From a virus, in the IMG/VR virus record IMGVR_UViG_3300017917_002672, positions 1-33,118 of that record: DNA of 33,118 nt; one strand, given 5' to 3'. Below are positions 4,357 to 8,921 of the stretch, in pieces. Position numbers and translations under genes: made by a program. Position 1 is the stretch's first letter. The number at the start of each line of letters is the position of its first letter. Under the pieces are notes generated by a model, which had not been told where the DNA came from, made no database searches, and saw only the letters and a program-made list of their open reading frames with translations.

Positions 4357-4562
4357 ATTCAGGTCCAGACTTCGGCTTCGTCTTTTAGGACCTTACTTTT
4401 CACTGTCGTTTGAGTTTCTATAGTAGGTCAGGAAACTCCTTCGGTAAGGAAATGGACCGGATAGTTTTACCATCAACTCCAGAAGGGAATGGATTACGTT
4501 ACTTTCTGTTTTACGTCAATAAAGTTAACTCACAAACGGGAGCAATATAAAAAGACGACCTG
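4357..4562 (-). ncRNA. Candidate structured RNA between tRNAs
   Basis: About 200 nt with no protein frame. On the tRNA strand CGTTTGTGAGTT pairs at long range with AACTCAAACG; further hairpins are CCTT-ACCG-AAGG and a nested AGGTCC/GGACCT stem containing AGAC/GTCT near the 3' end, next to the tRNA-like gene. The segment CAGTGAAAAG before the last hairpin also appears in the spacer at 8189-8327. Not recognised as RNase P, tmRNA or a group I intron (no P7-type R and S pair seen). Confidence 0.45.
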
Positions 4563-4652: not shown

Positions 4653-5066
4653 TTATAAACCCCTATAATATTTACTACGAGGTCTACCTTCTTTTTTATT
4701 TGCCCCTTTATAACTGTCAGTTAAACTATGACAATTTGGACAAATTATCTCAAGATTTTCAATTTTATTGTTCATAAAATTTCCATCTTTATGACTTAAC
4801 TCTAATGGAACTTTTCCTGTATGTTTATTTCTTTCCGACCACCCACACGACATACATTTTTCATTACAAGTTTCCATCATATAATCTCTTATCCATTTTG
4901 CCGTTTGAGTTTTACCTCTCATTCCATCGTGATTACCATTTAACCATTCTTGAATTTTAATATCTCGTTTAACTTTCGCAACACAAGTTTGTGAACAAAA
5001 TTTGGTTCTTCTTCTACCAACATTACCACAACAAGGACAAGTTTTTTCTGAATATATTCCCGGCAT
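4653..5066 (-). CDS. Free-standing HNH endonuclease with zinc ribbon
   Basis: 137 residues from the ATG at 5066 (MPGIYSEK); the frame extends upstream but the extension has no support. An N-terminal zinc finger (CPCCGN and FCSQTC) precedes a helical linker, a second zinc pair (CNEKCMSC) and the HNH core LELSHKDGNFMNNKIENL with IICPNCHSLTDSY. The nuclease core closely resembles that of the intron enzyme at 2641-3114. The neighbouring tRNAs are intact, so it is not obviously inside an intron; mobile endonucleases of this kind insert in spacers. No Shine-Dalgarno; GATATTTATTATAA lies upstream. Confidence 0.85.
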   Translation of the reverse strand: MPGIYSEKTCPCCGNVGRRRTKFCSQTCVAKVKRDIKIQEWLNGNHDGMRGKTQTAKWIRDYMMETCNEKCMSCGWSERNKHTGKVPLELSHKDGNFMNNKIENLEIICPNCHSLTDSYKGANKKEGRPRSKYYRGL

Positions 5067-5140
5067 ATCTATTACTTTTATAATAAATATCTTGGTAGAC
5101 ACCAAAAGTATCTAAAACAGGTATATTCAACCTATTTTTT

Positions 5141-5150
5141 TCAAAGAACT
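5141..5150 (-). promoter_or_regulatory. boxA-like antitermination motif
   Basis: AGTTCTTTGAAAA on the tRNA strand, downstream of the structured spacer 5151-5429 and about 75 nt upstream of the HNH gene. Core identical to the other three copies in the array. Confidence 0.4.
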
Positions 5151-5429
5151 TAAAAAGTTCCCCACCTTGAGATTACAGGTGAGTAGTTATATCGGTTTTT
5201 ACTGTTTGAAAAACCTGCTGGGCGTCCCCGTTAAAAAAGTCAACCATATTACTCGGAGCAAGGATGATTTTCCAGCTTTATCCCGAAGGGACCGGCGTTT
5301 TACAGAGCCACACATAGTTTCTACCCATGGGATAGTCTTCTATGTGGATATTAGGATGTCCGGTCCTATACCCTATCCATTTTTAAATGAGTCTTGGATT
5401 AAAGACTGCTGAGTACCTCTCACTCATTG
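5151..5429 (-). ncRNA. Candidate large structured RNA (about 280 nt)
   Basis: No credible coding frame. On the tRNA strand it starts after tRNA-Asp with hairpin AGTCTT/AAGACT. A 7-bp stem GGACCGG/CCGGTCC then encloses CCACATAG/CTATGTGTGG, itself holding CTA-CCCATGGG-TAG. A CCCTTCGGG tetraloop hairpin and a domain CAGGTTTTT..AAAAACC..CCTG follow. GGATAG early on could pair with CTATCC in the internal loop, giving alternative folds. The density of GC-rich helices in such an AT-rich genome suggests selection for structure. No known family is recognised; large phage RNAs such as GOLLD and ROOL are worth testing. Confidence 0.5.
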
Positions 5430-5502
5430 CGGTTCATCACGGGATCGAACCGAGACTCTCTACATCGACAGTGTAGCATGTTAGCCATTACACCAATGAA
5501 CC
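5430..5502 (-). tRNA. tRNA-Asp(GUC), first copy
   Basis: Perfect acceptor GGTTCAT/ATGAACC and anticodon stem CTACA/TGTAG, loop CTGTCGA (GUC), discriminator G73. One mismatch in the T-stem. The loop has A38 where bacterial tRNA-Asp normally has C38; a second GUC tRNA at 8117 has the canonical C38. Confidence 0.88.
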
Positions 5503-5779
5503 AAATTGATTCTAACTTATCTTCAATCTGCACCATCCAAGTCATGCTCTGGTTGACAAATGCCTCGTTAAGTTAGTCTCAAAAAAATTTACAGGTTTTT
5601 CGTTCCCATTTGAACATCATAACTGATATATTTCTAAATCAGTGGTCACATTTTCACAATTGGGTTAATCACTCCCCGCTTATAGCGACTCTACCCGCAC
5701 CGCTTTGATATCTAGAATCAAGACAGCTCTTTGGGATTTATAGACAGAGGGGTTCCACCTCCGTCGTCACCTGATTTCT
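5503..5779 (-). ncRNA. Candidate structured RNA / long 3' region of the small basic gene
   Basis: No gene larger than a few codons. On the tRNA strand, hairpins are visible: GGAGGTGGAACCCCTCTGTC, GAC..GTC around AAAGAGCTGTC, and near the end a stem CTAACTTA/TAAGTTAG enclosing GCA..TGC and CCA..TGG pairs, ending just before tRNA-Asp. It could be an independent RNA or the structured 3' part of the transcript for the gene at 5780-5899. Confidence 0.4.
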
Positions 5780-5899
5780 TTACTTTCTTCTACGCTGTCG
5801 GAGTGCCGATCCTGCCACTGATTTATAATCTTTTGTAGTTCTTTTACTTCTTAAAGCACTACTGGCCTTTCTTGCCACTCTTTTTGACGTTCTCGCCAT
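5780..5899 (-). CDS. Small basic Lys/Arg/Ser-rich protein, 39 aa
   Basis: Begins MARTSKRVARKASSALRS and ends in a basic tail RQRRRK. The pattern TSKxVAxKASxxLR...KSVAGSAL(S/R)Q matches small conserved hypothetical proteins that I recall from many bacteria and phages. Strong positive charge suggests nucleic-acid binding, perhaps ribosome or RNA association, but that is inference. It lies between tRNA-Met and a structured spacer; no Shine-Dalgarno. Confidence 0.65.
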   Translation of the reverse strand: MARTSKRVARKASSALRSKRTTKDYKSVAGSALRQRRRK

Positions 5900-5924
5900 A
5901 GTCAAAAGTTTTAGTTGCAGGTGC

Positions 5925-6001
5925 AGGATTCGAACCTGACGTGCCATTTTATTGGCGTCGGCTTATGAGACCGCTGAGTTTGACCTCTACTCTAACCTGC
6001 A
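5925..6001 (-). tRNA. tRNA with anticodon CAU and a long variable arm
   Basis: Acceptor TGCAGGT/ACCTGCA, D-stem GAGT/ACTC, anticodon loop CTCATAA (CAU), T-loop TTCGAAT, discriminator A. The variable region is about 18 nt and forms a hairpin GCCA-ATAAAA-TGGC, so this is a class II tRNA although Met and Ile2 tRNAs are class I. Amino acid identity is therefore uncertain (Met by anticodon). Confidence 0.82.
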
Positions 6002-6007
6002 ATATGG

Positions 6008-6079
6008 TGTGATTGGAGAGAATCGAACTCTCACATGAAGAACCACAATCTTCCGCCCTACCATTAGGCTACAACCACC
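6008..6079 (-). tRNA. tRNA-His(GUG)
   Basis: Acceptor GTGGTTG/CAATCAC with an extra 5' G (G-1) as in all histidine tRNAs; anticodon stem GAAGA/TCTTC, loop TTGTGGT (GUG). The discriminator reads A rather than the usual bacterial C73; ACC follows. Confidence 0.9.
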
Positions 6080-7924: not shown

Positions 7925-8116
7925 TTCTGTTTGTCTGACTTGTCACTTTCCATAACAATTTGTTTTAAAGGTTTTTTATTTATTCGTCTTTCCGAATTGC
8001 CAACCCGTTCCCGTTTCCGGTTAAAGGATTTTGCCCAGAGTTTTATGGTGAGGTATCTTTCGATAGTAACAACATCGTTTTAATTGTTACAACTCCCAGG
8101 GACTATAACCATCTGC
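7925..8116 (-). ncRNA. Candidate structured RNA between tRNA-Lys and tRNA-Asp
   Basis: About 190 nt without a credible gene. On the tRNA strand it begins GGCAGATGGTTATAGTCC and contains hairpin GTAACAA/TTGTTAC and GC-rich segments (CCGGAAACGGGAACGGG). The ATAGTCC string recalls the S element of group I introns, but no matching R element is found upstream, so I do not call an intron. Confidence 0.4.
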
Positions 8117-8188: not shown

Positions 8189-8327
8189 GTTGGCGCCCAT
8201 CTTTTCACTGCTATGGCGGAGACCAGTCCTATTTTACTTATTACCGAACGTGCTATGGTAATTTTCAAAATCATCAAACTGCTGATGGACCCCGCTGACC
8301 TTTATAAGTAAATGTCAGTAAAACTTG
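8189..8327 (-). ncRNA. Candidate structured RNA between tRNA-Asp and tRNA-Glu
   Basis: About 140 nt, no gene. On the tRNA strand a 10-bp long-range stem ATTTACTTAT/ATAAGTAAAAT encloses hairpins CATCAG-like CATCA/TGATG and ATTACC/GGTAAT; an alternative hairpin CTGAC/GTCAG uses part of the same sequence. GCAGTGAAAAGATGG near its 3' end recalls CAGTGAAAAG in the spacer at 4357-4562. Confidence 0.45.
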
Positions 8328-8688: not shown

Positions 8689-8727
8689 GTAAAACAAAAA
8701 ACCCCGAGATTTTGTCTCGAGGTTTTT
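8689..8727 (-). terminator. Intrinsic terminator
   Basis: Stem AACCTCGAGA/TCTCGGGGTT followed on the minus strand by TTTTTTGTTTT, just downstream of the 33-residue gene and just before tRNA-Ala. Array transcription would have to read through it or start after it. Confidence 0.8.
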
Positions 8728-8748
8728 ACTTTTTAAAGTTAATCTATT

Positions 8749-8850
8749 TTAACCTAAATCAGTATCAAAAACTCGAGACATGGTAATATCACGCTCATCC
8801 GCCCATTTTGAACAGATAATAAATGATTTTGTATGTATGAATTGTTTCAC
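8749..8850 (-). CDS. Small protein, 33 aa, GTG start
   Basis: Begins (V/M)KQFIHTKSFIICSKWADER and ends SRVFDTDLG. GTG at 8850 is the only good start before an upstream stop. It has the composition of a real protein, its own host-type promoter (8922-8952), and a terminator 20 nt past the stop codon, so it is a complete unit. The leader has a possible hairpin TGTAAC/GTTACA. No family recognised. Confidence 0.5.
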   Translation of the reverse strand: MKQFIHTKSFIICSKWADERDITMSRVFDTDLG

Positions 8851-8921
8851 TGAATTATTTTATTTTTTAAATTTACTTTATGTAACCTCGGTACGAAATA
8901 CTTCTTACCTCAATTGTTACA

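Follow-up and report, generated by a model that had tools for sequence, protein, structure and literature searches.

Phage tRNA genes are accompanied by several kinds of structured RNA. Phage T4 produces two stable RNAs, species 1 and species 2 (RNA C and RNA D), of about 120-140 nt, which lie inside the phage tRNA cluster and are processed from the tRNA precursor. To our knowledge, the RNAs GOLLD (RF02032) and ROOL have received no functional assignment since their discovery. Many members of GOLLD are over 800 nt long and the RNA forms nanocages, ROOL, which is large and structured, occurs near tRNA islands in phages and prophages and has no known protein partner, and both RNAs self-assemble (PMC12286853). 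In gut phages, the theta (HDV-like) ribozymes are pseudoknotted and lie immediately 3′ of phage tRNAs, with the cleavage site at the tRNA 3′ end (PMC10879173). The element described here, E1, sits in a phage tRNA island, the location that characterizes GOLLD.

The window, by which we mean the whole stretch of DNA that was analysed (33,118 nt, a 33-kb IMG/VR virus record), has a GC content of 30% and comes from a tailed phage, with matches to T4-type terminase and portal proteins. The nearest named relative of its terminase was that of a Flavobacterium myophage, at 28% identity. ARAGORN found 22 tRNA genes, all on the minus strand and within the first 8.7 kb, compared with 24 counted by Rfam. 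E1 lies on the minus strand at 5160..5427, where the covariance model of the family (R1) matched over its full length (1-214) with 189 bits and an E value of 1e-58. The extent of 5151-5429 given in a preliminary description of this DNA was therefore very good; the processed RNA probably spans about 5429-5155. Directly upstream is tRNA-Asp (GTC; 5430..5502, minus; ARAGORN, and Rfam RF00005 with 58.5 bits), separated by 2 nt from the start of the model. On the 3′ side lies a free-standing HNH endonuclease gene (4653..5105, minus), which has PHROG HNH matches and is outside the E1 family. Its 150-aa protein had only HNH-type matches of note, and no RuvC part was seen. Elsewhere in the array, 8690-8870 (minus) is the tRNA operon leader, in which a hairpin resembling a terminator comes after a small ORF (MSRVFDTDLG); this leader is 72-81% conserved in other phages. 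Five non-coding spacers between tRNAs (1-123, 765-826, 4357-4510, 7955-8112 and 8190-8326, minus) look structured and have a GC content of 37-51%. They had few or no homologues in the fetched loci, and their folding z ranged from +0.9 to -2.2.

Three related contigs were found via a neighbouring phage gene. In contig L004, the sequence after the tRNA-Asp opened with the same GCAATGAGTAAGAGATACTCAG and closed with the same motif as in the window. A pattern scan of IMG/VR with the 5′ end (GAGTNAGAGNTACTCAG) matched at least 119 stretches, most of which were E1 beside a tRNA and some of which were chance matches in coding sequence. R1, with 214 model positions, was built solely from this set. A second scan with a 3′-end pattern gave at least 68 further loci, and R1 matched all 68 of 68, 64 of them at full length. 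From both scans and the model, the family comprises at least 119 distinct full-length copies and at least about 140 IMG/VR loci; the 119 copies are 200-284 nt long (median 209). E1-bearing phages reach 465 kb. The homologues all come from metagenomic contigs, from which alone the genomic setting is known. Among 27 phage records with E1, 24 carry a single copy. Record G004 holds an additional weak copy. In G012 and G013 an additional copy (G012:130139-130340 and G013:88672-88873; L185 and L186) follows the first at about 500 nt; it is strongly diverged, has a different 5′ hairpin and scored 55 bits.

A search of 4227 families of Rfam 15, at the gathering score and at E up to 10 (4900-6010), gave no credible match to E1, only implausible chance-level ones. 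The preliminary description, which had reported a candidate structured RNA of unrecognised family near tRNAs, was right on both points, the neighbour being tRNA-Asp. BLAST with three family members gave no credible match in 50,697 named phages. Across 84,980 genomes of bacteria and archaea, a conserved 19-base motif of E1 had a single match, cut off at a contig end, which argues that E1 is restricted to phages. We did not find a description of this RNA in the literature searched, a partial collection, so an earlier description is possible. E1 is a real, previously uncatalogued phage RNA family. Ornate RNAs of phage tRNA islands are a known kind; the family and the fold of E1 appear to be new.

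As had been remarked in the preliminary description, the stretch is GC-rich in an AT-rich genome (43% versus 30% in the window), and 3.5% of 270-nt windows are equally GC-rich. Its folding energy was barely better than that of shuffled sequences (z -1.7; 11 of 200 shuffles folded equally well). Homologues were therefore needed. We aligned 52 E1 sequences and sought pairs by mutual information without a prior structure. The top covarying pair (148-181, in helix P4) was G-C in 27 sequences, A-U in 10, U-A in 8 and C-G in 7, that is, 100% paired. In the full structure, 89.7% of cells were paired, compared with 79.3% in shuffled and 38-49% in slid alignments. Changes on both sides of a pair occurred in 291 cells versus 87.5 after shuffling, and the covariation score was 0.285 versus 0.119. 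None of 500 shuffles reached the observed value of any of these three measures. The covariance model does not include the three pseudoknots. They were tested by an alignment-free method, in which the pairing of a copy's loop with its own downstream strand was compared with its pairing with the strands of other copies. The z values were 14.6 for the P2 loop (PK1), 9.3 for S1 across S2 and 9.9 for the P4 loop (PK3), against -0.9 to 1.1 for four control segment pairs. The shuffles leave the relatedness among copies in place, and the control segment pairs carry equal relatedness. Covariation among homologues, whose absence would have counted against the candidate according to the preliminary description, was thus found, and it supports seven helices, three pseudoknots, a kissing contact and one tertiary contact. 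Since the fold of E1 is preserved through changes in its sequence, the RNA almost certainly does a job.

All the following coordinates are on the minus strand. Hairpin P1 (UGAGUG-AGAGG-UACUCA, 5410..5426) was paired in 99.4% of cells, and one homologue had the compensatory form UGAACA/UGUUCA. Hairpin P2 (AGUCUU/AAGACU, 5390..5407) was 95% paired, with a UA to AU double change in eight sequences. In PK1 (AUCC/GGAU, 5375..5399), the P2 loop (5399-5396) pairs with 5378-5375, and double changes were seen in 4/4 pairs. The pseudoknot helix S1 (5354..5373), formed by GGGU (5373-5370) with AUCC (5357-5354), crosses S2 and occurs as GGGU/AUCC, CGGU/AUCG, UGGC/GCCA and UAGC/GCUA. In S2 (5289..5366), GGACCGG (5366-5360) pairs with CCGGUCC (5295-5289), with double changes in 7/7 pairs. 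P4 (5253..5286) consists of 5286-5282/5257-5253 and 5276-5274/5260-5258, and in PK3 (5243..5268) its loop AAUCAU pairs with a downstream AUGGUU. Hairpin P5 (5219..5230) has the loop GGAYGC or GUAAGA and double changes in 3/3 pairs. Its last loop base covaries with position 5187, which precedes P7; the combinations are C with A and A with U, suggestive of a tertiary contact. Hairpins P6 (GGUUUUU/AAAAACC, 5193..5217; double changes in 4/7 pairs) and P7 (CUCACC/GGUGGG, 5161..5183; 94.5% paired, three pairs with double changes) complete the fold. The P7 loop UCUC kisses the P1 loop (GAGG; z 5.2), so that the first and last hairpins are joined; in three copies GAGA/UCUC has become GAAG/CUUC.

The window copy keeps every consensus helix and has one more hairpin, within the loop of S2. 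The outer stem of the preliminary description, GGACCGG/CCGGTCC, is the covarying helix S2, which pairs in all copies. Its inner stem, CCACATAG/CTATGTGTGG (as RNA CCACAUAG/CUAUGUGUGG; 5347-5340 / 5317-5308), is indeed a hairpin in the S2 loop, but not a conserved part of E1: it is a lineage-specific insert present only in the window, L011, L017 and L071 among the 52 aligned copies. The UUCG-like hairpin (CCCUUCGGG) was not conserved, since its halves belong to different helices in homologues. The suspected pseudoknot became three, found by covariation and the alignment-free test. Also as described, E1 has no conserved reading frame, with any of the six frames open throughout in only 15 of 119 copies. 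We rejected a coding reading: AUGAGUAAGAGAUACUCA can be read as codons in frame, yet this frame is displaced by 2 nt from one homologue to another. A plus-strand reading was rejected as well, with a folding z of -1.3 and all homologues following the tRNA strand. The tmRNA model (RF00023) had no match in E1, though it does find the tmRNA of L014, and an AUG-initiated frame shifts between homologues; this identity was therefore discarded.

An upstream tRNA was found by ARAGORN in 55 of 119 copies, at exactly equal distance in 51 of the 55, and it belonged to at least 11 isotypes. Downstream, ARAGORN found a tRNA of at least 12 isotypes in 68 of 119 copies, 59 of them at 5-6 nt, and the downstream flank was the start of a tRNA-Leu-like RNA in 24 of the 119. 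No tRNA on the opposite strand was found beside E1 in the 119 copies by ARAGORN. The remaining upstream sequences were read by eye, leaving about 13 of 119 copies that are not directly preceded by a tRNA or a tRNA-like end. Most copies share the two bases CA, which separate the discriminator base of the tRNA from the start of the model, and a run rich in A after the model end. The 3′ neighbour of the window copy is the HNH gene, whereas in most homologous loci E1 is followed by a tRNA at 5-6 nt. GOLLD was present in 20 of 37 phage records examined and in 11 of the 27 with E1; in these 11, both RNAs were on the same strand (11/11), 0.8-17 kb apart. The GOLLD-like setting noted at the outset was therefore real, with E1 itself being neither GOLLD nor ROOL. 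The GOLLD matches, in L131 and 19 other records of the group, scored 239-330 bits and were often a few kb from E1 or from E2, a second element described below. A tmRNA gene (L014:5724-6218, +; 68.5 bits) lies inside a phage tRNA array that also holds E1 and GOLLD.

We consider it likely that E1 is a passenger RNA of the tRNA operon, which is released when the tRNAs are processed and acts in trans, in the manner of GOLLD, ROOL and the T4 species 1 and 2 RNAs. A spacing that hardly varies with the isotype of the tRNA, the shared strand and the single copy in shuffled arrays point to a passenger RNA gene that is cut free. A conserved, closed fold with several pseudoknots and no conserved reading frame points to a stable trans-acting RNA. 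E1 would be transcribed within the polycistronic tRNA precursor. Its 5′ end would come from the 3′ cut of the preceding tRNA and its 3′ end from the RNase P cut of the following tRNA, so that the excised RNA would keep tails of 2-3 nt and 5-6 nt. The freed, nuclease-resistant RNA would then act in trans during infection. It would probably bind a protein or the translation apparatus, or self-associate via the loop-loop contact; such a partner, or self-assembly of the kind known from GOLLD and ROOL, is plausible. The approximately 13 of 119 copies without a directly upstream tRNA count against this model, as does the window copy without a downstream tRNA. Because the 3′ neighbour in the window is the HNH gene, the 3′ end of the window E1 must form in some other way.

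The main rival is a cis-acting E1, either a self-cleaving ribozyme or a module for the processing or stability of the flanking tRNAs, with no later life. A nearly fixed distance to the tRNAs on either side, regardless of isotype, would be expected here too, and theta ribozymes at phage tRNA 3′ ends provide a precedent (PMC10879173). However, a genome has a single E1 for its dozens of tRNAs, the majority of which lack it, and the copies missing a neighbouring tRNA, including that of the window, again do not fit. As for a ribozyme, E1 does not have the topology of HDV, since S2 and S1 are not separated by a P3 and the tRNA end is not followed by a G1, and no Rfam ribozyme matched up to E 10. We therefore regard cis action as unlikely. 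The passenger reading could take the form of a decoy, an antitoxin-like RNA that binds and neutralizes a nuclease of host defence, or else a toxin, of phage or host origin, that attacks tRNAs or ribosomes. In type III toxin-antitoxin systems, compact RNAs with several pseudoknots bind toxins. E1 resembles them in this respect, travels with tRNAs, which are targets of defence systems, and has as neighbours tRNA-Leu-like RNAs without an anticodon arm. However, no toxin gene was linked to E1 within the window and no repeat array of the ToxI type was seen, which makes a decoy quite improbable.

It is very doubtful that E1 is an intron, or the guide RNA of the adjacent HNH gene as in HEARO or omega RNA. 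The HNH gene directly follows E1 in the window, but most homologues adjoin a tRNA instead, and these flank statistics nearly refute the idea. We rejected a HEARO/IscB omega RNA on these mostly tRNA-flanked homologues and on the 150-aa HNH protein with only HNH-type matches of note and no RuvC part seen. Group I and II introns were rejected because no Rfam model of either group, nor that of HEARO, matched and the upstream tRNA is intact, with no split exon. Chance folding of a GC-rich spacer has next to no probability. The folding energy z of only -1.7 would agree with it, but it is refuted by the compensatory changes seen in most helices and in the three pseudoknots, for which the controls were clean.

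The arrays hold other structured RNAs. E2, a second conserved element of about 180 nt between tRNAs (window 5590-5775, minus; CAGGTGACGACGG...AAAAACCTG), is followed by a conserved 85-nt stretch (window 5510-5590). It is 79% identical in L002, is present in about 25 loci and has a consensus fold of -71 kcal/mol from 17 full copies; no Rfam match was found for it. Of the records with E2 that were searched, only one lacked GOLLD. A small basic ORF (MARTSKRVARKASSALRSKRTTKDYKSVAGSALRQRRRK; window 5779-5901, minus) has tRNA-Met on one side and E2 on the other. Related arrays, such as those of L006, L079, L007 and L014, contain tRNA-Leu-like RNAs (TAGTCAGGTGGCGGAATGGTAGACGC...ACAGGTTCGAATCCTGTCCTGACTA; 141 distinct, with as many as nine in one locus). 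Within a strict set of 55, the acceptor and T arms were 97% identical, and the middle was hypervariable (30% identity, 35-162 nt), with an anticodon arm of normal size in only three. Some have a further insert in the D-loop (L072:3429+, L014:4210+, L103:1309-, L074:2152+), and that of L074 resembles another tRNA-like sequence. The tRNA-Leu-like RNAs may use a tRNA scaffold to carry variable payloads, or may serve as decoys for defences that target tRNAs. We tentatively suggest, at somewhat less than even chances, that phage tRNA islands are factories for unrelated structured RNAs processed with tRNAs (E1, E2, GOLLD and the payload-bearing tRNA-Leu-like RNAs), in which E1 is a core single-copy member with its own function in infection and not a variant of a known RNA class. 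E1 suggests that these islands hold many processed structured RNAs that tRNA finders and Rfam miss.

Among the known systems, the T4 species 1 and 2 RNAs are shorter than E1, and we know of no sequence relation between them, so the likeness is one of setting only. Theta ribozymes have the minimal nested double pseudoknot of HDV with G1 at the tRNA end, whereas E1 opens with a hairpin and is larger. We rejected a theta or HDV-like identity because E1 has only 2 nt between the 5′ strand of S2 and the 3′ strand of S1, starts with CAAUGAG and had no Rfam HDV match. ROOL, at about 660 nt, has a different fold, and its Rfam model had no match in E1. The GOLLD model, which finds GOLLD in related phages, gave no match in the window, nor in 4900-6010 at E up to 10. 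GOLLD and E1 are unrelated in sequence and fold, with models of 416 and 214 positions, respectively, and E1 is about 210-285 nt long versus more than 400-800 nt for GOLLD and ROOL. Nevertheless, GOLLD and E1 are both phage RNAs with several pseudoknots in tRNA islands. E1 is thus a third and much smaller family (about 210 nt) in the setting of GOLLD and ROOL, often in the very array of GOLLD, and is tractable for structural work and knock-outs.
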